Part shown: piece after piece, positions 1,586-37,026 of the stretch
Layout of the letters: every line of letters starts with the position of its first letter
Numbering within the stretch: the first letter of the stretch is position 1
Assembly: GCA_013388435.1 (NCBI GenBank)
Contig: JACAFE010000037.1
Coordinates: forward strand, 1-40,780
Direction of reading: 5' to 3'
DNA from: Nitrospirota bacterium
GTDB lineage: Bacteria; Nitrospirota; Thermodesulfovibrionia; Thermodesulfovibrionales; SM23-35
Length of the DNA: 40,780 nucleotides
Notes under the pieces: model-generated
Database searches by the model: none
The model's input: only the letters and a program-made list of their open reading frames with translations
Told to the model about the DNA's origin: nothing
Translations under genes and position numbers: made by a program

Positions 1586-2851
1586 ATGTCACAGATATAC
1601 GAAATAAGAGATCCTATTCATGGTTTTATTGAAATTAATGAGTGGGAACGAGACATTATAAATCATGCTGTTTTTCAAAGACTAAGAAGAATAAGACAAC
1701 TGGGTTTAACTGATATGATTTATCCTGGGGCTATGCATACGCGCTTTGAGCACTCCCTCGGTGTCATGCATTTAGCTACAAAGATGTTTGATGAAATAGT
1801 AAAAAGAAGAATTGATTTTCTAAAGAAAGAACTCAATTACTCAGATGGAGGAATAGAAAGAGACAGAATTTTATTGCGTCTTTCATGCTTACTACATGAT
1901 ATTGGACATTCTCCTTTTTCCCATGCTTCCGAAGATCTAATGCCTAAAGACGAAAAAGGAAGGCCTTATAAACATGAAAATTACTCTGCGGCAGCAGTGG
2001 TTTATTTAATGAAAGATGTCATTGATGACCATCCATTAAATCAAAATCACCGTATTAGAGCCCAGGAGATTGCTGATTTTCTAAATAATTTTTCTTTAAG
2101 AAGGTCATTATTATGGAGAAGCTTACTGTCAAGCCAGCTTGATGCAGACAGATCAGATTATCTGTTAAGAGACTCTCATCATATTGGTGTCGCATATGGG
2201 AAATATGATTTAAACAGACTACTTGTAACTATGACCGTAGCAATAGATCCAGAATCTAATCCAACACTTGCTGTCGAAGAAAGCGGTGTTCATGCCGCTG
2301 AGGGGCTAATAGTTGCAAGATACATGATGTTTACACAAGTATATTTTCAGCATACAAGAAGGGCCTATGACTATCATCTTGCAATGTCTATGAGGTCATT
2401 GCTTAAAGAGCAGCAATTTCCACCACCAACAAATAGAAACAATATTGAAGAATATTTAAAATGGAATGACTGGTGCGTACTTGGAGAGATAAACAATGGG
2501 AATGGCGGTAAACATGGAAAACTCATATCAGAAAGAAGGCATTATAGAAAAGTTTATGAGACGCCAGAGGTCCCATCTCAGGAGGATGTCGAAGCCTTAA
2601 ATAAAATATGGGATGAAATTGGCAATGATGATGCGTTTTTAGACAAAGCAGAAAACTCTTGGTATAAATTTGATAATACCGATATACCTATTTTAGAAAA
2701 TATAAATAAATCAGATGAAAAGGTTACATATTTATCTAAACTCTCAAGTGTTGTTTATGGCTTGAAGCCTGTGGGTCAGTCAAGAATCTATGTCTCAGTT
2801 GAGAAAAAAGATGATATAAAAAAGAGGATAGAGAAAATAAAATGTAAATAA
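1586..2851 (+). CDS. HD-domain phosphohydrolase (dGTPase-like, YwfO/COG1078 type)
   Basis: 421 residues. The N-terminus IRDPIHGFIEI and the stretch FQRLRRIRQLG are typical of this family. Metal-binding HD signature: H56 (in TRFEHSLGVMHLA), H104-D105 (in LLHDIGHSPFSHASED) and D186 (in LDADRSDYLLRD). The family contains dNTP triphosphohydrolases and related phosphohydrolases; the exact substrate cannot be read from sequence. It is followed after 21 bases by a YwgA-like gene, the same order as ywfO-ywgA in Bacillus subtilis (from memory). Placed at the start of a defence-like island, it could act on nucleotides during phage attack, but that is inference; a housekeeping role is equally possible. 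The start is preceded by an extended -10 rather than a ribosome site. Confidence 0.88.
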   Translation: MSQIYEIRDPIHGFIEINEWERDIINHAVFQRLRRIRQLGLTDMIYPGAMHTRFEHSLGVMHLATKMFDEIVKRRIDFLKKELNYSDGGIERDRILLRLSCLLHDIGHSPFSHASEDLMPKDEKGRPYKHENYSAAAVVYLMKDVIDDHPLNQNHRIRAQEIADFLNNFSLRRSLLWRSLLSSQLDADRSDYLLRDSHHIGVAYGKYDLNRLLVTMTVAIDPESNPTLAVEESGVHAAEGLIVARYMMFTQVYFQHTRRAYDYHLAMSMRSLLKEQQFPPPTNRNNIEEYLKWNDWCVLGEINNGNGGKHGKLISERRHYRKVYETPEVPSQEDVEALNKIWDEIGNDDAFLDKAENSWYKFDNTDIPILENINKSDEKVTYLSKLSSVVYGLKPVGQSRIYVSVEKKDDIKKRIEKIKCK

Positions 2852-2872
2852 TAATGTGAGGAGGAGAGGAAA

Positions 2873-3421
2873 ATGGGAAAGGGAGATTTTGATATTCTAT
2901 GGAAGAGATATGGTGTTATTGCTGAATTGGCTAATAGAGCAAAAGATATTCCAACACAGTTGAGTAAAACTAAACTTCAAAAACTTATCTTTTTACTTCA
3001 AGAGATTTATGGTGTTGACTGCGGGTATGACTTCAATTTTTATATTTATGGACCATTTTGTTCCCAACTTGATGCTGACCTCTCAATCCTCGACTATTGG
3101 GGAGGCGTGAAGATTAATCCAGTTGAGTTTGGATATGATATTAGCATAGGCGAAAGGAATGAAGTTCTAAGAGAAAAGGCAAGAGACTTCTTAAGTGAAA
3201 ATTCAGACAACATTGAAAGGCTTGTTAATAAATTCGGAGGTTATACTGCAAAGGATTTAGAGTTAATATCTACAATTATTTATGTAATGCACACGGAAAA
3301 GGATACTTCAAAAGATGATTTGCTACAGATAGTGCAGTCTATTAAACCAAGATTTTCTAAAGAAGAAATATTAGATAAAATTAGTTTACTCGAAAATGAA
3401 AATTTAATACAATTTGCCTAA
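2873..3421 (+). CDS. YwgA-like / SocA-like protein
   Basis: 182 residues, preceded by a strong ribosome site (GAGGAGAGG). The N-terminal part has KTKLQKLIFLLQEIYG followed by FYIYGPFCSQLDADL, the pattern of the YwgA family, which resembles the Panacea/DUF4065 antitoxin fold. No catalytic motif is visible. Pairing with an upstream HD phosphohydrolase is conserved in Bacillus as I recall it, suggesting that the two act together, perhaps with this protein regulating or tethering the enzyme. It ends the operon: 282 non-coding, AT-rich bases follow, holding only a weak 7-bp hairpin (CTCAAGC/GCTTGGG) near 3582-3601. Confidence 0.7.
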   Translation: MGKGDFDILWKRYGVIAELANRAKDIPTQLSKTKLQKLIFLLQEIYGVDCGYDFNFYIYGPFCSQLDADLSILDYWGGVKINPVEFGYDISIGERNEVLREKARDFLSENSDNIERLVNKFGGYTAKDLELISTIIYVMHTEKDTSKDDLLQIVQSIKPRFSKEEILDKISLLENENLIQFA

Positions 3422-4889: not shown

Positions 4890-7800
4890 ATGAATAATGT
4901 CGAACATCTAAAACACCTTGCAAAATACTACAGAGATCTATTATTTTCACTTTCCAGTCAGGTAGGGAAACACTTTGTAGACATCAACGCAGTTTTGCGT
5001 TATGGACTAACTACTGATCTTAGTCTGTTTGTCCCAGAAATTGAAGAGCTTATTACCAGTGGGACAATTAGTTTCACTATAGACAAGGCTTCGCCTTCAA
5101 TTGTTAATAAAATCATTGAAAAAGCCAACGAAATTGAAGATAAAGAAGAAAAAGGTGAAATTTCTGAGGACATTGAAGTAAGTCTTGAGGGACAAGAAAG
5201 AAAAAAAACATCAGCCATACTCGTAGCTATATATCGAAAACAGGAATTTGATCCCTATAACCGTGAAGTTATCATTGGATTCCCATTGGTTTCTGGAAAA
5301 GTAGAAAAAAAGAAGTTTTGTGCACCGCTTTTTTACTATAAAGTACGCATTGATTTCGACCCTTTGAAAGGCTTAATAACGCTTACTAAGGATTTTGAAA
5401 TACCAGCATTAAACTTCCAACTGATAAAACATCTTGTAGAATCTGATGAAGATATCGAAATGATTCGTCAGCAAATTTTACCGCATCTTTATCGTGAAGA
5501 CTTTGGATTATCAACAATTCAAGAGATCATTCAAAGGCTTTCTGAATTGGTTGAGGGGTTCAGGGGATTATCGTATTCATTAAAACCATCTTTTTTAAGA
5601 GAAGCACTTGAGTTGAGAGAGACTGCTGGTGCCAACATTCTTGATACTTCCATTATTGTCAACGCAAGGAGAACAAATGCTTATTTGCTTGATGACCTGG
5701 CTCAATTGGCTCAGATAGAAGAAATAGATGATGAAACAATAATAAATACTATTTTGTCAGAACCCGTAGAGATCGAAAATGAAGATATTAAAAATGATAA
5801 AAATATAAGCGAAAACCAATCACTTCTTTTGTTTCCACTTTTAAACAATAAGGCACAACGACTTGCAGCAATAAAGACAGAAAAGGGCAGACTTCTGGTT
5901 ATACAGGGCCCGCCAGGAACTGGAAAATCTCAAACCATAGTTAACCTTATCTGTCATCTTGTAGCACAGGGTAAAACTGTTTTAGCTACAAGCCATCAAA
6001 ATAAGGCTCTCGAAGTCATTACCAAAATCATGCCAAACATTAATTACTTAGCTATGTCTTTGCTAAAGGGAGAAATAGAATCCATCAATGAACTTAGGAA
6101 CAAGATAGAAGGGTTCCATTCTTATGTTAGCAATGTAGATATTGGTGATTATAAAAAGTCGCTGGAAGAGCGGTGGGCTGATTTAAGTAAAAATAACTAT
6201 GATATAAATAGATTGCAAGTCAGGTTTTCGGAACTTAAAACTCTCGAAAGAGATCAATATTCGATATACCATAAATATCACAAAATAAGAGACTACGATG
6301 TAATTGACGCCTCCGATTCTGTTCCTGAAGGGACGGATTCTGCTATCTCTTCCGCTTTATCGGAGTATTCAAAACTTTTGAAAAATCTTAGAAAAGACTA
6401 TTTACGTATTGAAAACTTATTGCCTGATGATGATCCCGAAAAATTAAAGGCAAGGAGTAATTATCTTTTGTCGTTTATCAATTATTGTGAGATTTGCAAT
6501 TATGATCTAATCGATCCCGCCGATTCAATTCAGGATGGAATGGATTCCAATGTGGGTCAGGCTTTATCTGAATATTCAGCTTTGTTAAAGGGACTCAGAG
6601 ATAATTATTCAGATATAGAGAAAATCTTACCCTGTTCTGACCAAACAGAGACGGAGGGTGATTACGTTATTATAAGGTGCATATCTTGTGGTGTCCAAAA
6701 TAGGATTCCAAAAGGTAAAGTACAGCTTGCTATAAAGTGCGGGCGTTGCGGACAATCAGTTGATATCCAAGATAATAATATTGAAGTTTCAATAGAAAAT
6801 ATTGGAAAGCTCATCGATTCATATGATTGGGTTAAAAAGAATCTTTTTTCATATGCAGAGACAATAAATTTTTTTCAACAGTTTTCAAAATCAAGTCTTA
6901 AAAATGATGAAATTATATATTACCTGGATAATCTCATTAATTGGACGAGCCAACATTTCAATAAACTGATAGGCTCTTTAAAGTTACTGACTGAAGCATA
7001 TAATTTAAAAATAGATTTTCAAACTTCTAAAAACCAATGCGCAAAATATGGAGCTGAAATAGAAAATATTATTAAATGCATTGAAAACTTACAGTATAAA
7101 TTACAATCACTCAAAGAATACAAAATTAATGATGAATACCCTGAACATCCTGAAAATTCTTTGTTGGAAGAAGTGACATTACATATAAATATTTTGCGTG
7201 ATGCATCAGGTTCTTGGTGGAAGTGGTATTTATTACCAAAAGCCCAAAAAGCACGAAAATTTTTTGGGGCACAGAAATTTCCCCGAGTTACATATAAAAA
7301 TCGATTAGGATTCCTTAAAAATATTAATGCGTGGTATAGCTATTGGAAATTAAGGAATCATATAGCAAGAGACTTAAAATATCTAGCTGAAATGGATATC
7401 CCAATAAAAAACCTATCTCTAAAACCTTCCCTTGGAGAGCTTCACCAAAACGCTAATCTTGTATTACAATATTCTCATTTACTAGGTGCCATTAATTCAT
7501 TTCCAGTCACTTCAATTGATACTATTAAAGACTTTATGGAACAGCAAATAGCAAGCGTTTCATCTCCAGAAGATATTTTTAAATTTAAGGAATCTCTTGA
7601 AAAATCGAGGATCTACTTAGAAACATGCACGACCTTGGATAAACTAAAGTCTAATAGCCATTTTGCGTATTTGTGTGATAAATTGTTTTCCCCCGTTGAG
7701 GAGTCGATCTATAAATTGGTACCAAATGAAAAGGCTGATAAAATCGTTAAGAGGTTAAAAGAATTGTATCCTTATTTTCAAGATTACAAGAGAATAAAGA

Positions 7801-10007
7801 TCTTCAAGGAAACTACTTTAAAAACACTTCCCAGAACTTGCCTTAGACTGAAAAATGAGATTATTAAAGAAAATAATATCTCTTTATTTCATCCTGAACT
7901 CACTCCTAAGGCATTTAGGCTCGCATCATATATAAGAGAGAATTTAACAAAAAAATTAGATGAGCTGAATGAGACTGAAATTAAGAATTTATATCCATAC
8001 TTCGATGACTACATAAGGTTAAAAACGATCGAGCGGACAGCTTTAAAAACGCTCACAAAAACAGTTTCAAAAATAAAAAGTGTAATACTCAAAGGGATAG
8101 ATATCGCAGCATTGGAAAGGCCGGACTTAGTTGTAGATGCATTCAGACTTTCTTCATTCATCAGAGAGGATCTTTTAAAAAATCCAGATGATATCAATGA
8201 GGTAGCAAAAAAGATTAGTGAAATTAATGGAGAAACTCGAAGATTAATCTTGAAAATCTTAGATGTAAGCCGCAAATTAGCTTTAAAGGAAGCAGAACAA
8301 AGCCGCGCCACCTTGTTTTTAGTAAATAAAATGAATCAAATACTTAGAAGAAGGCGTAAAACTTATTCCTTTGTCCAATTGCGTAATCAAATTGATTACA
8401 GAAAGCTTCTATCAGTATTTCCATGTTGGATAATGAGCATTGAAGATGTTGCACGCATTTTTCCATTACAGGCTGGTTTATTTGACTATCTCATTATTGA
8501 TGAGGCCTCGCAGTGTAATCAGGCAACCGCATTGCATTTAGCATATCGTGCTAAAAGGATGATTGTCGTTGGAGATAGAAAACAGATGAAAAATCCTAAT
8601 ACACAATTCTTAAGTGATTCCGTGGTTCGTCTAAATCTTACAAAAAATAGAATGGATAAACATACTAAGGCAGAATTCTTTCATGGAAGAAATTCACTTT
8701 TAGATCTCGCTCTCGGATGCCAGGACATCAGTCCGGTATTTCTTAATGAACATTTCAGGTGTGAACCGCCCATAATAGAATTCTCCAATAAGCAATTCTA
8801 TGATGAGAATCTGAAAATACTTACGCCATTTCGTCGAAAACGTTTCAATCCATGCATGGAGATTAAAGTTATCAATGGAGCTTATGATGACCCTTACACA
8901 AAACAAAATATTGTAGAGGCTCGAGCTGTAATCGATGAATTGAAAAGAATAATAGAAAATGGCGAACTTGAAGGAGATAGAAAAGGCGAGAAACTCACTC
9001 TTGGTATTCTATCTCCTTTTAGGCAACAGGCATCGCTTCTTCAGAGTATGGTATATGAGATATTTAACGAGCGTCCACATATTATTAAAGAACATGAAAT
9101 AATTACTTCCACAGTAGACGGTTTTCAAGGAGATGAACGCGATGTAATTCTTTATTCCTTCAGGTATGCACCAAATTCAAAGCCAGGGACAATCCATGTT
9201 TTACAAAGAGAAGATGAGCATTCATTAGGACGCTTAAATGTAGCTTTTAGCAGAGCAAGAAGAAAAGTCGTATGTTTTATCTCGATGCCAAAAGATAATT
9301 TCCCAAAAGGTTTAATTAAAGAATATCTAAACCATGTTGCAATAGTACAGGGTTCTTCTTACAGCAGACTTGGCAACCCAAATGAAAGAGAAAAATGTCA
9401 GAGCGATTTTGAAAAAGATGTATTCGATGAGCTTGTAAGAAAGGGTTTAGAGGTATATTCACAGATCCCCTGCGCTGGATTTTTCATAGATTTTGTCGTA
9501 ATTGACAAAGAGGGTAGAAGAATGGCTGTTGAATGCGATGGTGAATTTCATTATGAAGAAGGCGAGCTTAGGGAAGAGGACTATCAAAGACAGGACATTA
9601 TAGAACGATATGGGTGGTTTGTACATAGAATCTCCTCACGTAAATTTTATGCTGACCCACAAAAGACCATAGAGAGACTAATAGAAGAATTACAAAAACA
9701 ACCGGTAGACAAAGAGATTTATGTCGAGAAAACAGAAGAATTAAGCCATTTTGAAAAACATTTAGAACCTACAGAAAGTTTTAAAGAATCTAAGCTTCTT
9801 TTTGATGAGAAAGCCTTTTTTGAAAAAAGCAACCGGGAAAAGATAATGGAGATCTTATCAGAAGAATCATTACCAGTATGGGCTATAGCTCAAAAACTTA
9901 AAATTCCGAAAGAAGAAACACTTATCGAACTCAGAAAACTTTTGGAAACAAAATGGGTTATCGAAATACATGAGGATGGAGTAAAAAAATGGAAGGCAAT
10001 TGATTAG
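4890..10007 (+). CDS. Giant Upf1-like SF1 helicase with zinc ribbon and C-terminal Vsr/MTES-type nuclease
   Basis: 1705 residues; ribosome site AAGGA six bases before ATG. Helicase motifs: Walker A GPPGTGKSQT (340-349), Walker B LIIDEASQ (1201-1208), VVGDRKQMKNP (motif III), LNEHFR, TVDGFQGDERDVI (motif V) and GRLNVAFSRARR (about 1447-1458). This is a Upf1/AAA_11-AAA_12 layout with about 850 residues inserted between motifs I and II. The insert has two ~50-residue repeats (466-515, 535-584; shared pattern YDxID..DS...D), a C-x2-C...C-x2-C zinc ribbon (597-620), and two ~75-residue repeats (956-1030, 1031-1105; each with LYPYFxDY). The C-terminus has a nuclease-like domain with E1508, D1534 and E1548-C-D1550, like REase_MTES_1575/Vsr, then a winged helix (about 1645-1705). 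A role in phage or plasmid defence is inferred from the domains and neighbours. Confidence 0.85.
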   Translation: MNNVEHLKHLAKYYRDLLFSLSSQVGKHFVDINAVLRYGLTTDLSLFVPEIEELITSGTISFTIDKASPSIVNKIIEKANEIEDKEEKGEISEDIEVSLEGQERKKTSAILVAIYRKQEFDPYNREVIIGFPLVSGKVEKKKFCAPLFYYKVRIDFDPLKGLITLTKDFEIPALNFQLIKHLVESDEDIEMIRQQILPHLYREDFGLSTIQEIIQRLSELVEGFRGLSYSLKPSFLREALELRETAGANILDTSIIVNARRTNAYLLDDLAQLAQIEEIDDETIINTILSEPVEIENEDIKNDKNISENQSLLLFPLLNNKAQRLAAIKTEKGRLLVIQGPPGTGKSQTIVNLICHLVAQGKTVLATSHQNKALEVITKIMPNINYLAMSLLKGEIESINELRNKIEGFHSYVSNVDIGDYKKSLEERWADLSKNNYDINRLQVRFSELKTLERDQYSIYHKYHKIRDYDVIDASDSVPEGTDSAISSALSEYSKLLKNLRKDYLRIENLLPDDDPEKLKARSNYLLSFINYCEICNYDLIDPADSIQDGMDSNVGQALSEYSALLKGLRDNYSDIEKILPCSDQTETEGDYVIIRCISCGVQNRIPKGKVQLAIKCGRCGQSVDIQDNNIEVSIENIGKLIDSYDWVKKNLFSYAETINFFQQFSKSSLKNDEIIYYLDNLINWTSQHFNKLIGSLKLLTEAYNLKIDFQTSKNQCAKYGAEIENIIKCIENLQYKLQSLKEYKINDEYPEHPENSLLEEVTLHINILRDASGSWWKWYLLPKAQKARKFFGAQKFPRVTYKNRLGFLKNINAWYSYWKLRNHIARDLKYLAEMDIPIKNLSLKPSLGELHQNANLVLQYSHLLGAINSFPVTSIDTIKDFMEQQIASVSSPEDIFKFKESLEKSRIYLETCTTLDKLKSNSHFAYLCDKLFSPVEESIYKLVPNEKADKIVKRLKELYPYFQDYKRIKIFKETTLKTLPRTCLRLKNEIIKENNISLFHPELTPKAFRLASYIRENLTKKLDELNETEIKNLYPYFDDYIRLKTIERTALKTLTKTVSKIKSVILKGIDIAALERPDLVVDAFRLSSFIREDLLKNPDDINEVAKKISEINGETRRLILKILDVSRKLALKEAEQSRATLFLVNKMNQILRRRRKTYSFVQLRNQIDYRKLLSVFPCWIMSIEDVARIFPLQAGLFDYLIIDEASQCNQATALHLAYRAKRMIVVGDRKQMKNPNTQFLSDSVVRLNLTKNRMDKHTKAEFFHGRNSLLDLALGCQDISPVFLNEHFRCEPPIIEFSNKQFYDENLKILTPFRRKRFNPCMEIKVINGAYDDPYTKQNIVEARAVIDELKRIIENGELEGDRKGEKLTLGILSPFRQQASLLQSMVYEIFNERPHIIKEHEIITSTVDGFQGDERDVILYSFRYAPNSKPGTIHVLQREDEHSLGRLNVAFSRARRKVVCFISMPKDNFPKGLIKEYLNHVAIVQGSSYSRLGNPNEREKCQSDFEKDVFDELVRKGLEVYSQIPCAGFFIDFVVIDKEGRRMAVECDGEFHYEEGELREEDYQRQDIIERYGWFVHRISSRKFYADPQKTIERLIEELQKQPVDKEIYVEKTEELSHFEKHLEPTESFKESKLLFDEKAFFEKSNREKIMEILSEESLPVWAIAQKLKIPKEETLIELRKLLETKWVIEIHEDGVKKWKAID

Positions 10008-10098: not shown

Positions 10099-10518
10099 AT
10101 GATTGAGATGAACAAGGAAAAGCAGAAGGAGATTAAGGGATTTCTTGGATGGCTTGAGAGTCAATTGAAAATTATTCCAGATGTCAAAGGAGATAAAGGT
10201 ATTGAAGTCCTTACTGGAAAGAGTCAGATTAAAAACTACCTCGGTGATTATCAAAAGGGGGAAGAATATATTCCATTTGAAGATTTCTGGAAGATTCTTG
10301 AGAAGAATAAAACAAAGATTCAGGCGAATATCAATTCCAGAGAGTTTTATGAGAACATCAAATCCGAATATGAAAAATCCCTCTCAAAACTTCTACCTCT
10401 GATGAAAGAAAAACTTCGCAAAACCGACTGGCTCATTGACCAGATTGTTTATAAACTTTATGGTTTGACTGAAGAAGAAATCAAAATCGTTGAGGGCAAA
10501 ACTGACCGTTGTTTATAA
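10099..10518 (+). pseudogene. C-terminal stub of a restriction-modification methyltransferase
   Basis: 139 residues ending LIDQIVYKLYGLTEEEIKIVEG, the typical tail of Eco57I-like and type IIG/BREX-type N6-adenine methyltransferases, where IDxxVYxLYGLTxEEIxIVE closes the target-recognition part. KEIKGFLGWLESQL also fits the region after the methylase domain. No catalytic methylase motif (NPPY) or nuclease motif is present, and the frame is closed by a stop at 10060, so only the 3' end of the gene remains. It may still be translated from the ATG at 10099, but no ribosome site is convincing. Confidence 0.55.
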
Positions 10519-10613: not shown

Positions 10614-10907
10614 GTGAAGACATTTGAGGAAATTAAGGAAATAATTAAGCGACATAAGGAGGACTTGAAGAAAGAGTATGGGGTTAAAGAAATTGGTCTT
10701 TTCGGCTCCTATGTCAGAGGCGAGCAGAAAAAAATCAGCGATGTAGATATTCTTATTGAATTAGAAAAACCCATAGGTTTTGTGAAATTTATAAAACTGG
10801 AAAATAGAATTTCCGACATGCTCGGCATCAAAGTTGATCTTGTAACAAAGAATGCTTTAAAACCCTATATTGGCAAAAGGATTCTTCAAGAGGTAAAGTA
10901 TGTCTGA
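10614..10907 (+). CDS. mntA: MNT-domain nucleotidyltransferase antitoxin
   Basis: 97 residues, GTG start with AAGAGG seven bases upstream. The nucleotidyltransferase signature GLFGSYVRGEQKKISDVDILIE has the GSxxRG turn and the catalytic D-x-D pair. The size and the partner gene match the MntA antitoxin of MntA-HepT systems, in which MntA adds AMP groups to a tyrosine of the HEPN toxin and so silences it (established for the family). Its last 8 bases overlap the HEPN gene (ATGTCTGA), indicating translational coupling. Intact, with all expected residues. Confidence 0.88.
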   Translation: MKTFEEIKEIIKRHKEDLKKEYGVKEIGLFGSYVRGEQKKISDVDILIELEKPIGFVKFIKLENRISDMLGIKVDLVTKNALKPYIGKRILQEVKYV

Positions 10908-11253
10908 AGAGAGACCGTTGCAGGATTATCTTAATGATATACTGGAATCAATAACTGATATAAAAGAATTCACGAAAGGGATAACGTTTGAAAATTTTGT
11001 TCGAGATAGAAAGACCTTTAAAGCTGTAGTGAGAAGTATGGAAATTATCGGGGAGGCAGTAAAAAAAATTCCACAGAATATTTTGGAAAAATATCCAGAG
11101 GCGCCGTGGCAGGAAATAATTGGAATGCGAAACAAGCTTATTCATGAATATTTTGGTATAGACCTTAATATTATCTGGCAGACGATTGAGGAAGATTTAG
11201 TTCCATTAGAAAAAATAGTTAAAAAAATATTCAATGATTTATATGGCGATTGA
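10900..11253 (+). CDS. hepT: HEPN-domain RNase toxin
   Basis: 117 residues, HepT-like (DUF86). The signature RNKLIHEYF supplies the R-x4-H RNase motif and the nearby Tyr (R-x4-H-x-Y) which is the known site of oligo-AMPylation by MntA. The body has the expected GEAVKKIP and PWQEIIGMRN segments. It is coupled to the preceding antitoxin by an 8-base overlap, and its stop TGA overlaps by one base the old ATG of a decayed darG. The pair looks complete and functional. Confidence 0.88.
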   Translation: MSEERPLQDYLNDILESITDIKEFTKGITFENFVRDRKTFKAVVRSMEIIGEAVKKIPQNILEKYPEAPWQEIIGMRNKLIHEYFGIDLNIIWQTIEEDLVPLEKIVKKIFNDLYGD

Positions 11254-29889: not shown

Positions 29890-29980
29890 GGAGAGATGTC
29901 CGAGAGGCCGAAGGAGCACGACTGGAAATCGTGTGTGCGCTAAACCCGCACCGTGGGTTCAAATCCCACTCTCTCCGCCA
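29890..29980 (+). tRNA. tRNA-Ser (anticodon GGA)
   Basis: 91 bases including an encoded CCA. Acceptor stem GGAGAGA with TCTCTCC, anticodon stem CACGA/TCGTG with loop CTGGAAA (anticodon GGA at 29924-29926), a long variable arm (GTGCG...CGCAC) typical of serine tRNAs, and a T arm ending GGTTCAAATCC. Discriminator base G. Reads UCC and UCU codons. Confidence 0.97.
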
Positions 29981-29992
29981 GTTTGTTTTTCT

Positions 29993-30103
29993 GCAGCCTG
30001 GGTACGGCCCTTCGCAGCAGAAGGATGTGAACCCCGTCAGGTCCGGAAGGAAGCAGCGGTAAGCATTTTTTCTGGGTGCCGGAGGTAGTCGTTCCCAGGC
30101 TGG
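29993..30103 (+). ncRNA. ffs: SRP RNA, small bacterial (4.5S) type
   Basis: The ends pair (CAGCCTGGG at 29994-30002 with CCCAGGCTG at 30094-30102), and the apical domain has the invariant GTCAGGTCCGGAAGGAAGCA block. About 111 bases, without an Alu domain. It scaffolds the Ffh protein for co-translational membrane targeting. It starts 12 bases after tRNA-Ser and its 3' end adjoins dnaX. Confidence 0.95.
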
Positions 30104-30115
30104 AGGGAAACAAAA

Positions 30116-31738
30116 TTGAGTTATCTTGTGCTTGCAAGAAAATGGAGACCGCAGAAATTTGATGACTTAATCGGTCAGGAAACAATAACTAAAATTTTAA
30201 AAAATTCCATAGAGCAGGGCAAAATAGCCCATGCTTATCTTTTTTCCGGGCCAAGAGGAGTTGGCAAAACATCTTCTGCAAGAATATTTGCTAAAGCCTT
30301 GAATTGTGTTGATGGACCAACGCCAAATCCATGTGACAAATGTTCTTTTTGTAAATCAATAACAGAAGGTTCTTCTGTTGATGTAATGGAAATAGATGGT
30401 GCATCAAATAATAGTGTCAATGACATACGGGATTTAAGGGAACGAGTCAAATATGTTCCTTCTGGCGGAAGATATAAAGTCTATATTATTGATGAGACAC
30501 ACATGCTTTCAGATGCTGCATTTAATGCCCTTCTGAAAACACTCGAGGAACCACCGCCACATGTTGTATTTGTTCTTGCTACGACCGCACCACGTAAGAT
30601 ACCTGCTACAGTTCTTTCAAGATGCCAGCATCTTCCATTCAGAAGAATATCCTTATTAAAAATTCTTGACAGACTAAAGAAAATAACCGTCTCAGAAGGA
30701 TTGAATATATCAGAACCGGCTCTTGAAATTATAGCAAGAACAGCTGACGGGAGTATGCGTGATGCTCTAACTATTCTGGATCAGGTTTCATCTTTTTCTT
30801 CAGATATAAATGAGTCCGATGTGCGGAACCTTTTGGGTATTACAGAATTCAATATTTTGTCCCTTTTTTCCAGCGCTATAATTCAGGGAAATAGAGAGGA
30901 GATATTCAAATTAACCTCCGAACTTGTTGAAAGAGGCACGGATTTCAGGACATTTATTAAAGAGTTGATATTTTTCTTCCGTAATCTTCTTGTTTCGAGT
31001 GTGGTTAAAGATCCGTCTAAAATTCTTGAATTAGCTGGTGAAGATATCTCCTTTATAAAAGAAATATTGCAGAAAACTTCTGAAGAGCAGCTTACTTTGA
31101 TAATGAATGAATTGCTCGAAGCAGAAATTGACATGAGAAATTCGTCTTCCCCACGTCTTGCTTTTGAGATGGCTCTTTTAAAAACAAGCTTTTTGAATAC
31201 CATGAAGCCGGTCAAAGAGATAATTGAACATATTGATAAATACGTAAGATTTAATAAACAGGGTATTTGCACAAAAAAGGATGAGATAAAAAAATCTGAT
31301 AGCGAATTAGAATCTACTGATTCGATGCCTCCTGCTGAACTGACAGAAAACGAGCAACATCCTCGAGAAGTTGCTTCGTTAAATGATGAAATATGGCAAA
31401 GAGCTCTGAAAAAGATGGAACCTCCTCTGGCTTCGAAACTTTCCAAAGCAGATTATTGTCTCAAAGATAATATTCTTAATATTATTCTTGATGAATGCTA
31501 TTCTGTCTTCGAGGATTCGATAAAAAAGAACTCTAATATTTTAGAGGAAATTTTTTCCGGGGAAATTGGTGCAAAAGTTAAGATAGAAGTACAAATTTCA
31601 GCTGATAAAAGAAGAATAAGTAAAAAAGACCTGAAAGAAGAGATAATGGCAGATCCTTTTATTAAGGATATGCTCGAGCTATTCAACGGCAGGATTGTTG
31701 ATATAACGCCTGTTGAAAAACAGGAAAGTTCAATTTGA
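30116..31738 (+). CDS. dnaX: DNA polymerase III tau (and gamma) subunit
   Basis: 540 residues, TTG start; GGAGG (30102-30106) lies nine bases upstream, right at the end of the SRP RNA. Walker [11 protein letters not shown] (44-53), zinc-binding cysteines C64, C73, C76 and C79, Walker B-type [23 protein letters not shown], and the SRC sensor motif. Domains I-III end near residue 370; the rest (about 395-540) is the tau-specific part that binds polymerase and helicase. It is the clamp-loader ATPase. A frameshift signal at codons 386-388 should yield a gamma form of 389 residues. Followed 25 bases later by ybaB. Confidence 0.96.
31260..31299 (+). promoter_or_regulatory. Programmed -1 frameshift signal in dnaX (two slippery heptamers)
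   Basis: AGGG (31260-31263) lies nine bases before the heptamer A-AAA-AAG (31273-31279, in the correct phase). After a -1 slip the next codons are GGA TGA, so translation ends with one extra Gly. In E. coli dnaX the layout is AGGGAG, ten bases, A-AAA-AAG, then GAG TGA. A second in-phase heptamer, A-AAA-AAA (31288-31294), would slip into ATC TGA. A weak stem (CGAAT/ATTCG) may follow at about 31303-31325. Confidence 0.7.
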
Positions 31739-31763
31739 ATTTTTCTATATAGGGAGGAAATAT

Positions 31764-32099
31764 ATGTCCAAAAAGATGCTCGGAGATATTATGCGTGAAG
31801 CACAGAAGCTTCAGACAAAAATGGCTGAGATTCAGGAAGAGGCAAAGAAAAAGACTGTTGAAGCAACAGCAGGCGGCGGCATGGTTACAGTTGTTGCAAA
31901 CGGTGCAATGGAAATTGTCTCTATAAAAATCGAAAAAGAGGTTGTAAATCCTGATGATGTTGAAATGCTTCAGGATCTTATAATAGCTGCTGTCAACGAA
32001 GCGTTAAGACGTGCTCAGGAAATGGTTAATTCCGAAATGTCAAAACTTACAGGAGGCCTTCAGTTACCCGGACTCGGGAATCTCGGTAAAATGTTTTAA
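31764..32099 (+). CDS. ybaB: YbaB/EbfC nucleoid-associated protein
   Basis: 111 residues. Start at ATG 31764 with AGGGAGG eight bases upstream; the longer frame from 31713 overlaps dnaX needlessly. Features: an N-terminal helix ([20 protein letters not shown]), [17 protein letters not shown], and the C-terminal [11 protein letters not shown] tail. Forms dimers that bind DNA. The order dnaX-ybaB is widely conserved, usually followed by recR; here recR is missing and an HNH gene starts directly after the stop codon. Confidence 0.93.
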
Positions 32100-32399
32100 A
32101 TGGAAGCTTTTATTTCTGAAGTTACAGAAGAAGATATAAAAAAGGAAAAACTAAAAGCCCGGGAGCTGAAAAAAACGAGCTGGTGGAAAAAAAAACTTTC
32201 AAGGGGTATCTGCTATTATTGTGGTAGAAAATATTCTCCGTCTGAATTAACAATGGATCACCTTGTTCCGCTTATAAGAGGCGGTAAAACAACAAAAAGC
32301 AACGTAGTTACTGCTTGCAAGGAATGCAATAACAAAAAGAAATACCTTCTTCCTTTTGAATGGGAAGAATATATGAAAAAAATTCAGGAAGACTCCTGA
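32100..32399 (+). CDS. HNH endonuclease-like protein
   Basis: 99 residues; the ATG directly follows the ybaB stop. Zinc-binding pairs C38-x2-C41 and C73-x2-C76 enclose the HNH core: TMDHLVPLIRGGKTTKSNVV (D53-H54, N68). The protein is basic and compact. Stand-alone HNH proteins of this kind are common beside core genes; the substrate is unknown. Its stop lies five bases before tilS. It may act in repair or be a domesticated nuclease. Confidence 0.82.
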   Translation: MEAFISEVTEEDIKKEKLKARELKKTSWWKKKLSRGICYYCGRKYSPSELTMDHLVPLIRGGKTTKSNVVTACKECNNKKKYLLPFEWEEYMKKIQEDS

Positions 32400-32404
32400 T
32401 TGAA

Positions 32405-33808
32405 ATGTTAACGGATAAAATCTTAAATAGCGTACTTATTACGAATAAGAAATATAAAATGTTTTTTGGGGGCGAGAAGATTTTGGTCGGCCTCTCAGGC
32501 GGTCCGGATTCTGTGTCTTTGCTACATATACTTGATAATTTTAAAGATAAATTCAGATTTACACTTTCTGCTATTTATGTTGACCATATGTTGCGGCCTG
32601 ATGAAACACCATCTGAAATTGAATTTTGCAAAAGCCTTTGCAATAAACTCTCGGTACAATTTTTTGTGAAATCTGTTGATGTTAAAAATTTTGCAAAAGA
32701 ACAAAATTTAAATATTCAGGAAGCAGCAAGACAACTTCGCTATTATGCATATGAAGAAAAAGCATGGGAAATTAAGGCTGACAAAATAGCTCTTGCTCAT
32801 ACAGCTGATGATCAGGCAGAAACCCTGTTAATGAGGCTTTTCAGGGGTTCTGGGACAACAGGACTGTCGGGCATTCCTCCTGTCCGCAAACATTTTATAA
32901 GACCTTTAATAGAAATTGAACGCAAGGAAATAGAAGAGTTTCTCGAACAGAATAAGATTGATTATATAACAGATTCTTCAAATATGAAGAAAGATTATTT
33001 GAGAAATAGGATAAGATTGACTTTAATGCCGCTTCTAAAAAATATAAACCCTGATATAACTACAGTGCTCTCGAGAACTACTGCTTTATTCAGAGATGAA
33101 GAAAGATACTTTGAAATAATTGTCACGAAATCTCTTATGAAAATGATAAGCAGAAAAACAAATGAGAGAATCGAGCTTTTTCTCTCGCCATTTGAAGTAA
33201 TGGATAAGGTGATTGCGAGGAGAGTGCTGAGGCGGGTGATTGATGAGACAAAGGGATTGCGCGGAATAAGTTTTCTTAATATAGAAGATATTATAGACCT
33301 TGTAAAAAATGGAAAAACAGGTGATAGAATATATCTTCCGAAAGGCATAAGGGTAATAAAAGATTATTCAACTCTTATACTGACATCTGAGGCACCTGTT
33401 GTTCTTGGCATATATAACGTAGAAATACCGGGTGAAACGCTACTTAAAGAATCAGGCATCTTATTGAAATCGTCGATAATTTCTAAAGAAGAAGCAGATA
33501 ATATCAGTAAATTCGGGGAAGGAATATCTTTTGGACTTTTCGATTTCGACAGATTGAAAATGCCCTTGATGATTAGACCGAGAAAAAATGGTGACTTTTT
33601 TTATCCTTCAGGTTTTGGCAGGAGAAAAAAGATCCAGGATTTTTTTGTTGACTTAAAGATACCAAGAGATGAGAGAGACAGAATACCACTACTTATTAGT
33701 GATGAAAATATTGTCTGGGTAGTCGAGCATAGAAGTGATGAAAGATTCAGAATAGATAAAAATACAAAAAAAGTTTTAAGAATAGATGTAAAAAAGGCAA
33801 GGGATTAA
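32405..33808 (+). CDS. tilS: tRNA(Ile)-lysidine synthase
   Basis: 467 residues from ATG 32405; the frame is open from 32360 but those codons overlap the HNH gene. PP-loop SGGPDS (31-36), YVDHMLRPDE, LAHTADDQAETLLMRLFRGSG and DSSNMKKDYLRNRIR are TilS hallmarks; the C-terminal region (about 360-467) contains RPRKNGDFFYPSGFG and KKIQDFFVDLKIPRDERDRIP, which match the TilS C-terminal domain. It makes lysidine at position 34 of the tRNA that reads AUA, an essential step. Confidence 0.95.
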   Translation: MLTDKILNSVLITNKKYKMFFGGEKILVGLSGGPDSVSLLHILDNFKDKFRFTLSAIYVDHMLRPDETPSEIEFCKSLCNKLSVQFFVKSVDVKNFAKEQNLNIQEAARQLRYYAYEEKAWEIKADKIALAHTADDQAETLLMRLFRGSGTTGLSGIPPVRKHFIRPLIEIERKEIEEFLEQNKIDYITDSSNMKKDYLRNRIRLTLMPLLKNINPDITTVLSRTTALFRDEERYFEIIVTKSLMKMISRKTNERIELFLSPFEVMDKVIARRVLRRVIDETKGLRGISFLNIEDIIDLVKNGKTGDRIYLPKGIRVIKDYSTLILTSEAPVVLGIYNVEIPGETLLKESGILLKSSIISKEEADNISKFGEGISFGLFDFDRLKMPLMIRPRKNGDFFYPSGFGRRKKIQDFFVDLKIPRDERDRIPLLISDENIVWVVEHRSDERFRIDKNTKKVLRIDVKKARD

Positions 33809-33821
33809 AGGAGAAGATTTA

Positions 33822-35225
33822 ATGGTAAGAGTTCGTTTTGCTCCAAGTCCAACCGGACATTTGCATATTGGAGGCGCAAGAACAGCGCTCTTCAACTGGC
33901 TTTTTGCGAGACATAATAAGGGTGTTTTTATCCTGAGAATTGAAGATACTGATAGAAGCCGTTCTACTGAAGAATATATTGATTCAATAATGGAAGGGAT
34001 GAAATGGCTAAAGCTTGATTGGGACGAAGGACCTTTCAGACAAACTGACAGGTTTGAAATTTACAGAAAATATGCGGAAAAGCTTGTCTCAGAAGGAAAG
34101 GCTTATTATTGTTATTGTTCACCTGAAGAACTTGAAGAGAGGCGCAAAAAAGCTATTTCTGAAGGAAAGTCTCCAAAGTATGATCGCAGGTGCCTCGGGC
34201 TGGATAAGCCTTCCTCTGGAAAAGAACCAGCCATACGTTTCAAGATGCCTCAAGAAGGTATTATTGTTGTTAAAGATATGGTCAAAGGAGTGGTAACTTT
34301 TGAGAATTCCCAGCTTGATGATCTTATTATAATGCGCTCGGATGGTACCCCGACATATAATTTTACTGTTGTTGTTGATGATGTAGATATGGGGATTACA
34401 CATGTTATCAGGGGTGATGATCATCTTAATAACACTCCAAAACAAATTCATATCTATAATGCTCTCGGTTATAAGACGCCTGTTTTTGCTCATCTTCCAA
34501 TGATTCTTGGCTCTGATAAAACAAGACTTAGCAAAAGGCATGGAGCCACTTCAGTTATAGCTTACAGGGATATGGGTTATCTTTCTGAAGCATTAACCAA
34601 TTACCTTGTAAGATTGGGATGGTCCTATGGGGATCAGGAGATTTTTTCGAGGGAAGAACTTATAGAATATTTTTCATTTGAACATGTTGGTAAAGCCTCT
34701 GCTGTATTTAATCCTGAGAAACTACTCTGGCTTAATAGTCAATATATAATGAGAACATCTCCTGAGACACTTGTTGAACTTGTTATTCCATTTTTGTTAA
34801 AGAAAGAAATAATAAAGAAAGAGCAGGATATTGATAAAAAATGGCTTTCAAGAGCAATTGTAACTTTGCAGGAAAGAGCAAAAACACTCGATGAACTTGC
34901 TGATTCTCTGAATTTCTATATAACAGAAAAAGTTGAATACAATCCAAAAGCAAAGTCCAAATTCCTTAAAACCGAAAACATTGAGTTTTTAAAGAGTATA
35001 AAATCAAGTCTTGAAAATACAGGGGACTTGTCACTTCATAAGTTAGAAAATATTTTCAAATCAATTGCTGAAAAATATAATGTAAAGTTAGGAAGCATTG
35101 CCCAACCTGTCAGAGTAGCATTAACAGGAAAGTCCGAAAGCCCCGGAATTTTTGAAGTAATAAACATACTCGGGAAAGAAAGAGCAATTAAAAGAATAGA
35201 AGATGCTATTAAAGAGATAGGGTAA
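33822..35225 (+). CDS. gltX: Glutamyl-tRNA synthetase
   Basis: 467 residues; AAGGAGAAG upstream. HIGH-type motif PSPTGHLHIGGART (7-20) and KMSKS-type motif KTRLSKRHG (233-241). A Cys-rich insert (YCYCSPEE...YDRRCLG, about 93-125) fits the zinc site seen in many GluRS. Ends with a helix-bundle anticodon-binding part (LGSIAQPVRVALTG). A separate glnS follows, so this enzyme may be discriminating. 13 bases after tilS. Confidence 0.95.
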   Translation: MVRVRFAPSPTGHLHIGGARTALFNWLFARHNKGVFILRIEDTDRSRSTEEYIDSIMEGMKWLKLDWDEGPFRQTDRFEIYRKYAEKLVSEGKAYYCYCSPEELEERRKKAISEGKSPKYDRRCLGLDKPSSGKEPAIRFKMPQEGIIVVKDMVKGVVTFENSQLDDLIIMRSDGTPTYNFTVVVDDVDMGITHVIRGDDHLNNTPKQIHIYNALGYKTPVFAHLPMILGSDKTRLSKRHGATSVIAYRDMGYLSEALTNYLVRLGWSYGDQEIFSREELIEYFSFEHVGKASAVFNPEKLLWLNSQYIMRTSPETLVELVIPFLLKKEIIKKEQDIDKKWLSRAIVTLQERAKTLDELADSLNFYITEKVEYNPKAKSKFLKTENIEFLKSIKSSLENTGDLSLHKLENIFKSIAEKYNVKLGSIAQPVRVALTGKSESPGIFEVINILGKERAIKRIEDAIKEIG

Positions 35226-35316
35226 AATTTATACAGAGTTGTAGTTTATTTTATGTTAGAATATTTCCATTTAAAGTCAATATTATTTTGAATTTATTTT
35301 ATTAAAAATACCAGAA

Positions 35317-37026
35317 ATGAATACAGAAATTAATAAAGAAAATGTTTTACCTGAAACTATTGAGCCCCGTGATTTTATACGTGCAATTATAGATGCGGAT
35401 ATAAAATCAGGCAGGTATGAATCCCGTGTTCATACCCGTTTTCCGCCTGAACCAAACGGGTATCTGCATATAGGCCATGCAAAATCTATCTGTCTTAATT
35501 TCGGGATAGCTCAGGAATATAATGGTTTATGCAACCTGCGTTTTGATGATACTAACCCCTCAAAAGAAGATATTGAATATGTAAATTCCATAAAAGAAGA
35601 TGTAAAATGGCTTGGATTTGATTGGGGCGACAGAGAATTCTATGCTTCTGATTATTTTGATCAACTTTATGAATATGCAGTGCAGCTTATAAAAAAAGGC
35701 AAAGCATATGTGTGCGATTTAAGTCCTGAAGAGATTAGAGAGTATAGAGGCACACTCACAACCCCGGGCAGAGAAAGTCCATATCGCAATCGTTCTGTTG
35801 AAGAAAATCTAAACCTTTTTGAGCGCATGAAAAAAGGTGAATTTCCCGAAGGCTCAAAAACACTCCGCGCCAGGATAGACATGTCTTCCGGAAATATTAA
35901 TATGAGAGACCCTGTGATTTATCGTATATTATATGCCGAGCATCACAGAACCGGGAATAAATGGTGTATTTATCCTATGTATGATTTTGCACATTGTTTT
36001 TCGGATTCTATTGAAAGGATAACCCATTCAATATGTACCCTCGAGTTTGAAGACCATCGTCCTTTATATGACTGGTTTTTGAACGAGCTTAATGTATATC
36101 ACCCGCAGCAAATAGAATTTGCGAGACTCAATCTGAGCCATACTGTTTTAAGTAAACGCAAATTAATTCAACTGGTGTCAGAGGGGTTTGTGAAAGGCTG
36201 GGACGACCCGAGAATGCCCACAATTTCGGGGTTAAGAAGAAGAGGCTATACTCCAGAAGCAATTAGAAATTTTTGTAACAGAATAGGAGTTGCAAAACGC
36301 GACAGCACTGTGGAAATAGGACTGCTTGAGCATTGCATTCGTGAAGATTTAAATAAAAGAGCACCACGTGCAATGGCAGTATTGAATCCATTGAAGGTTG
36401 TAATTGAAAATTACAAAGAAGGTTTAACAGAAGAACTCGAAGCTATTAATAATCCGGAAGATATGTCAATGGGTACAAGGAAAGTTCCGTTTTCACGCTC
36501 AATATACATAGAAAAAGAAGATTTCATGGAAAATCCACCAAAACAGTTCTACAGACTCGCTCCCGGACGTGAAGTAAGACTTCGTTATGCATATTTCATA
36601 AAATGCATTGATGTCATAAAAGACGAAACAGGTGAAATAAAAGAACTTCGATGTATTTATGACCCTTCAACACGTGGAGGTGATGCTCCTGATGGAAGAA
36701 AAGTTAAGGCAACATTGCACTGGGTCTCTGCAGAACATTCAATTGAAGCGGAAGTAAGGCTTTATAATTCTTTATTCACAAAAGAAGACCCGGATGACGT
36801 TGAAGAGGGTAAAACATTTCTTGATTATATTAATCCTGAATCTTTGATTATTCTTAATTCATGTCGTGTTGAACCTTCACTTTCAATTGTCAAACCAGGG
36901 GATATATATCAGTTTGAGAGACAGGGTTATTTTTGTGCTGACCCTGATTCAATAGAAGGAAAGCCTGTTTTCAATAGGACTGTAACATTGAAAGACACAT
37001 GGGCCAAAATCAAGAAAAAACTTTAA
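35317..37026 (+). CDS. glnS: Glutaminyl-tRNA synthetase
   Basis: 569 residues. The N-terminus [21 protein letters not shown]-type motif [19 protein letters not shown] (42-60), [11 protein letters not shown] and KMSKS-type VLSKRKL. The C-terminal anticodon-binding beta barrels contain [13 protein letters not shown] and DYINPESL. Length and motifs match bacterial GlnRS. It charges tRNA-Gln directly. A 91-base gap after gltX holds no clear terminator, so read-through is possible. Confidence 0.95.

Follow-up and report, generated by a model that had tools for sequence, protein, structure and literature searches.

A giant Upf1-like helicase-nuclease from a Nitrospirota bacterium, with two duplicated segments and a zinc ribbon in its helicase insert

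The gene, its domains and its neighbors

The window (the whole 40,780-nucleotide stretch that was analysed, contig JACAFE010000037.1 of assembly GCA_013388435.1; its genome is called G000 below) carries a single open frame at 4890..10007, on the plus strand as are all the gene segments and neighboring ORFs given below, which encodes a 1705-residue Upf1-like SF1 helicase with a Vsr/MTES_1575 nuclease. The N-terminal region (residues 1–320, 4890..5849) is present in all four copies of the subfamily, including a core-deleted copy in the genome Kmv42, and residues about 110–320 can be aligned to the wider family. Helicase motif I, or Walker A (GPPGTGKS, residues 340–347, 5907..5930), is separated by a large insert from motif II, or Walker B (DEAS, residues 1204–1207, 8499..8510), which is followed by the second RecA domain (AAA_12, residues 1268–1462, 8691..9275) with motifs up to GRLNVAFSRARR. 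The Pfam matches above cut-offs were a split AAA_11 (E 6.2e-17), AAA_12 (E 5.3e-22) and MTES_1575; the AAA_11/AAA_12 core, together with its intact SF1 motifs, is that of an Upf1-like SF1 helicase. The MTES_1575 (Vsr-like) nuclease (PF18741, E 1.1e-25) spans residues 1507–1601 (9408..9692), in full agreement with a preliminary description that placed such a nuclease near the end of the protein; its catalytic residues D1534, E1548, C1549, D1550 and G1551 are intact, and their equivalents are invariant in 23 relatives. The winged helix proposed for the very end (residues 1649–1705, 9834..10004) is probable: the stretch is conserved in two other carriers, G039 and Kmv42, but its match to the Pfam profile PF0610-like_N was weak (E 0.0036, under the cut-off). 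The dN/dS of about 0.07 between the helicase-nucleases of G000 and G039 indicates strong purifying selection.

Upstream of the gene is an HD-domain (dGTPase-like) ORF, followed by an ORF resembling the C-terminus of DarG (both within 1586..3421); the latter (2873-3421), directly behind the HD-domain ORF, matches only DarG residues about 167–325 and is without a macro domain. Downstream are a fragment that matches type IIG restriction enzyme-methyltransferases at their C-terminus (10099..10518) and a toxin-antitoxin pair of MntA/HepT type (10614..11253). The locus had been described as an island of decayed defence genes; this holds for the DarG-like ORF and the type IIG fragment, whereas MntA and HepT both appear to be of full length.

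Giant proteins of the MTES_1575 type, which join an SF1 helicase, a Vsr REase and wHTH domains, were described in 2013 and proposed to recognise and cut invading DNA (PMC3710099). The window protein resembles them in joining the same kind of Vsr-like nuclease to the end of an SF1 helicase, with a probable wHTH at the C-terminus and no attached modification genes; it differs in having one such wHTH rather than two, and in duplicated arm segments and a ribbon which are not described there, and Pfam gave no match in it to the HEPN and transglutaminase domains of the MTES_1575 type protein. The best named matches were all to anti-phage or candidate defence families, Mokosh helicases among them. 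ProA (NF058533) was the best NCBIfam match (E 1.4e-87, motor and nuclease covered), but it scored 294.7 bits where the cut-off is 1500, and the insert and N-terminus lie outside the best stretch; no paper describing ProA was found in the literature. Hhe (NF042953; PADLOC Hhe) aligned over the helicase and the nuclease part (E 1.2e-64 in NCBIfam, 5.6e-49 in PADLOC), but its 218.5 bits fall short of the cut-off of 2000, and its DUF4011 domain gave no Pfam match in the window protein at E 0.01. The best PADLOC match, PDC-S37 (E 2.3e-83), came in two stretches, the best of which pairs residues 1174–1648 of the protein with 914–1386 of 1550 in the model, about one third of the profile; PDC-S37 is a computed candidate without a curated cut-off, not experimentally defined, and was matched as well by 23 of 23 canonical relatives.

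Repeats, zinc ribbon and the four copies of the gene

Two pairs of repeats lie within the insert: A1 (residues 456–513, 6255..6428) and A2 (residues 525–582, 6462..6635), offset by 69 residues, and B1 (residues 953–1029, 7746..7976) and B2 (residues 1030–1105, 7977..8204), offset by 75–76. Ungapped self-alignment of the A repeat (463–515 against 532–584, offset 69) scored 138, and that of the B repeat scored 106 and 81 at offsets 75 and 76 (one indel); the shuffle maximum was 38 in both cases. Gapped scores were 139 and 164 for A and B, respectively, compared to shuffle means of 25–28. The two repeat families are unrelated (cross score of A versus B 31, shuffle mean 33). The self-alignments and shuffles, taken with the motifs and Pfam matches, confirmed the overall description of a giant Upf1-like helicase-nuclease with two unrelated internal duplications and a ribbon. 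The copies within a pair share 56–57% identity in DNA and about 47% in protein; an apparent 33-bp identity between the A copies, and one of 18 bp between the B copies, was due to overlapping query windows and was discarded. It had been considered that the repeats might be absent in all homologues and result from recent slippage. Both duplications are found in the G039 homologue, at about 66% protein identity, and recent slippage was therefore rejected as their source. The outer copy of each pair (A1, B2) is better conserved between G000 and G039, the other copy diverging faster. Searches of relatives with HMMs of A and B turned up no convincing unit (for B the top match, E 0.0016, falls outside the insert), and repeats and ribbon of the window type were absent from the 40 other relatives surveyed.

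Next to A2 is the zinc ribbon (residues 587–623, 6648..6758; Cys 597, 600, 616 and 619 in a CxxC/CxxC arrangement), a 37-residue insertion relative to G039, absent in both G039 and G424. Its match to Pfam Zn_ribbon_Thio2 (E 0.0012) was below the curated cut-off, and its GC is 0.43, compared with 0.34 for the gene. Within the order the ribbon matches the C-terminal ribbons of short proteins (e.g., L018, FCISCGTKNKVPKAKLHMGPRCGNCKSGL versus RCISCGVQNRIPKGKVQLAIKCGRCGQSV) that look like PilZ-domain proteins, an assignment made by reading their sequences with no profile behind it. The simplest account of the ribbon would be capture of this lineage-local module into the arm, a case of an existing enzyme acquiring a zinc ribbon inside one bacterial order. 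The PilZ-like short proteins (L018, L020, L002 and G000:C43 were read) end in one or two TrxC-like zinc ribbons and occur in many genomes of the order; a ComF-like ORF adjoins the ribbon-bearing PilZ-like gene in three of the loci read.

A search with residues 1–319 against 176 genomes of the order detected the subfamily in four of them, and four copies are known in all. G424 has one A unit, one B unit and no ribbon, with a spacing of 676 residues between motifs I and II; G039 has two A and two B units without the ribbon (spacing 829); and the window gene has two A units, the ribbon and two B units (spacing 864). In Kmv42 (G015; L022:9995-11260, JACUUX010000002.1) residues 1–320 are joined to about 1607–1705, through a short filler at the deletion junction (L022 about 10953-10968), as a single open frame of 421 codons; about 1286 codons comprising helicase and nuclease are gone. 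This remnant could be a decay product or a regulator-like remnant, or it could represent a mis-assembly. The G424 copy is lesioned as well: its wHTH region, after the nuclease, is out of frame and has two TGA codons where relatives have Trp (L058:5939-6100). These lesions, which affect two of the four copies, could in part be assembly errors because both assemblies are draft.

The single-copy state is most likely ancestral, because the outgroup spacing is near 677 and 40 relatives lack such repeats; both duplications would then be derived and would predate the split of G000 and G039. The converse, that the common ancestor had two A and two B units and that recombination between repeats removed one A and one B from G424, would fit the unit trees, which are compatible with either rooting and do not by themselves root the series, and the single B of G424 is nearest to B2. 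We give this little credence, since the G424 spacing of 676 is the family mode, no such repeats were found in the 40 other relatives, and copies about 47% identical in protein are a poor substrate for recombination.

The insert as a helical arm

The family survey covered 40 loci from genomes of the phylum and 22 from viral contigs, and a relative at E 1e-20 was present in 54 of 396 genomes of the phylum. Among the 58 sequences with both motifs I and II, the spacing between them was 660–705 in 33 (family mode near 677), other classes lying near 340, 450, 640, 900–943 and 1219. The gap of about 850 residues to which the preliminary description drew attention is thus real (spacing 864) but an insert of such a size class is normal, a property of the family with the window protein inside its range. 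The sequence of the insert (about residues 400–1190, 6087..8459) is hardly alignable among relatives with plain HMMs despite this near-constant length, and between G000 and G039 it is about 40–60% identical, compared with 70–94% for the motor.

AlphaFold modelling of residues 430–1110 of the window protein alone gave a pLDDT of 37 and the model was discarded. A canonical relative on a viral contig, L100 (11-row alignment A3), was modelled at pLDDT 76.6, with an insert that is all helical and mostly at 80–95. The longest helices of this model are H140-175, which starts about 80 residues past motif I, and H640-676, which ends about 71 residues before motif II. By a profile alignment of subfamily to family (17% identity) A falls at about 183–247 and B at about 563–653 of the L100 model. 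Each lies immediately to the distal side of one of the two longest helices, A on the outgoing strand and B on the returning one. In G424 the A unit follows motif I at a distance of about 117–174 residues, the B unit precedes motif II by about 98–175, and the residues added by the duplications are 69 for A and 75–76 for B. From the model of the relative we infer that A and B may lie side by side in one antiparallel helical arm that was lengthened on both strands. The insert and its repeats had been supposed to be DNA-reading modules; this was unsupported, the helical arm being present also in relatives without repeats or ribbon, and the ribbon being a lineage-local addition.

A second subfamily (L076 and L082, spacing 943) has its own, older 85-residue internal repeat in the same insert (in L076 about 793–877 versus 953–1037, with the equivalent in L082; hhalign E 5.5e-5, control segments 0.18–0.67), so that internal duplication has probably enlarged the insert on more than one occasion. 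In Foldseek searches SMC/Rad50 proteins were the top matches by E-value and were rejected as homologues at TM-scores of about 0.1. SMC/Rad50-type ATPases are alike in layout only, a P-loop NTPase with a long helical arm between Walker A and Walker B; the core of the window protein is an SF1 helicase, and the two are not homologous.

Two readings of the insert were weighed. Speculatively, the arm could serve as a lever or ruler of fixed length, lengthened by strand-paired duplications at an equal level, grown independently in the spacing-943 subfamily, and later altered in its contacts by the ribbon graft. If true, the reach of these defence helicase-nucleases would itself be open to evolutionary change. 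The alternative, a serious contender although we give it less than an even chance, is that duplications and ribbon are neutral additions to a tolerant, fast-evolving region, with no strand-matched antiparallel arm and no functional consequence of length; the low identity of the insert relative to the motor, the lack of second copies and ribbon in G424, and the faster divergence of one copy in each pair would all be expected on this account. Neutrality is less easily reconciled with an insert whose sequence defeats alignment by plain HMMs and whose length nevertheless stays at 660–705 in 33 of 58 relatives, or with two duplications that co-occur in mirror positions, are nearly equal in added length and were already retained before G000 and G039 split. 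Upf1-like defence helicases (Hhe, ProA and CnuH types) carry a large insertion. For this insertion the subfamily offers a natural length series (676, 829 and 864), along with one copy that has lost the entire helicase-nuclease core, in contrast to the near-constant length in relatives; this opens the role of the arm and the importance of its length to a direct test.

Movement of the gene and its predicted function

At the DNA level, gatA is 70.7% identical between G000 and Kmv42, two genomes from different genera, and its synonymous sites are saturated. The two copies of the subfamily gene are, in DNA, 95.6% identical over the N-terminal 953 bp and 82.7% identical in the tail. These values, compared to that of gatA, show recent movement of the gene, with parts that have different histories, and thus horizontal transfer between genera as judged from the sequences. 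The copy in Kmv42 lies between PIN-like and DUF1016-like ORFs, and between gatA and gatB (ORF names read from sequence); that of G424 is behind a MerR-type regulator (likewise named by reading); and that of G039 is beside ABC transporters, a PHP protein, S-adenosylmethionine synthetase and tRNA-synthetase genes. Homologues in mostly housekeeping contexts would have spoken against a defence role, but the four copies have four different surroundings. Among 83 neighbors of 17 wider relatives were mad3, mad8, methyltransferases, Cas1, Cas6, AriA and integrases, with many ordinary genes mixed in.

The splitting of gatA and gatB in Kmv42 by the PIN-like ORF, the core-deleted copy and the DUF1016-like ORF (L022:7258-13514) may mark an insertion hotspot. 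A tRNA-Ser and the genes following it (dnaX, tilS and others) run in the same order at window positions 29890-36940 and at L022:13858-21251, so that the gene has the same broad neighborhood in the window and in Kmv42; it lies upstream of the tRNA in both, by about 20 kb in the window and 2.6 kb in Kmv42.

We considered if the protein could be a housekeeping or conditional DNA-repair helicase-nuclease, similar to Dna2 and without a special role against invaders. Its core of Upf1/Dna2 type and the ordinary neighbors of the G039 copy would suit such a role, which we nonetheless judge quite improbable for a gene found in 4 of 176 genomes of the order, transferred between genera, lesioned in two copies and differently placed in each carrier. 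The patchiness, transfer, different surroundings, lesions, purifying selection and neighbors of the wider relatives, taken together, favor an accessory mobile system over a core repair gene.

The explanation that we favor, with moderate confidence, is a mobile accessory helicase-nuclease acting against nucleic acid that invades the cell, with phage or plasmid DNA as the likeliest target, and with an arm that couples its parts and that grew by strand-paired duplication. The SF1B motor would load on exposed DNA and translocate; the long helical arm between Walker A and Walker B would pass its movement to the wHTH/Vsr-nuclease end or to a partner; and the Vsr-type nuclease would cut the DNA. In this subfamily the arm would have grown by tandem duplication of segment A on the outgoing strand and segment B on the returning strand, at distances from the motor that match. 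The zinc ribbon of the window gene would have been inserted next to A2. The enzyme probably unwinds and cuts foreign DNA; we infer the coupling of arm, motor and nuclease, DNA as the substrate and defence as the function. The stand-alone anti-phage or anti-plasmid effector suggested previously remains the best reading of its predicted role, in agreement with the 2013 proposal (PMC3710099) and with a patchy, mobile gene. ApsAB was considered for anti-plasmid activity, and dropped because its helicase is SF2 (PMC11096173).

An RNA target has to be weighed against DNA. CnuH helicases of the CoCoNuT systems, described in 2024, form an Upf1-like clade with a large helical insertion after Walker A; in type III-B a Vsr-like nuclease is fused to the helicase, and the authors argue for RNA targets (PMC11090510). 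Their modelling suggested that a wHTH contacts the helical insertion, coupling motor to nuclease (PMC11090510), and by analogy a similar wHTH-arm coupling may operate in the window protein. The likeness lies in the large insertion after Walker A (spacing 864 here, helical in the modelled relative) and in the fusion to a Vsr-like nuclease; a difference is that the probable wHTH of the window protein is C-terminal. An RNA-directed effector comparable to CnuH, acting on phage transcripts or translation intermediates with the Vsr-like nuclease as an RNase, would be consistent with the insertion and fusion shared with CoCoNuT helicases and with the best solved relatives by sequence, which are mainly RNA helicases (Sen1, Upf1 and IGHMBP2). 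We regard it as unlikely: the DNA enzyme Dna2 is also among those relatives, Vsr and MTES_1575 are classed as DNases (PMC3710099), and no McrB/McrC partner (McrB GTPase, CnuB) turned up among those window ORFs that were scanned with Pfam.

What was already known is the union of SF1 helicase, Vsr and wHTH, published in 2013, together with the helical insertion that follows Walker A, published in 2024. What is added here is the ordered step series, the near-fixed length of the arm, the hypothesis of strand-matched growth, the capture of a ribbon and a natural core-deletion allele.

Plasmid records gave no match to the N-terminus or the insert, and a first scan of viral contigs with a two-row alignment gave no matches. 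Relatives of the family were found on IMG/VR viral contigs (L100-L120), several of them full length, indicating that phages or proviruses carry members of the family.
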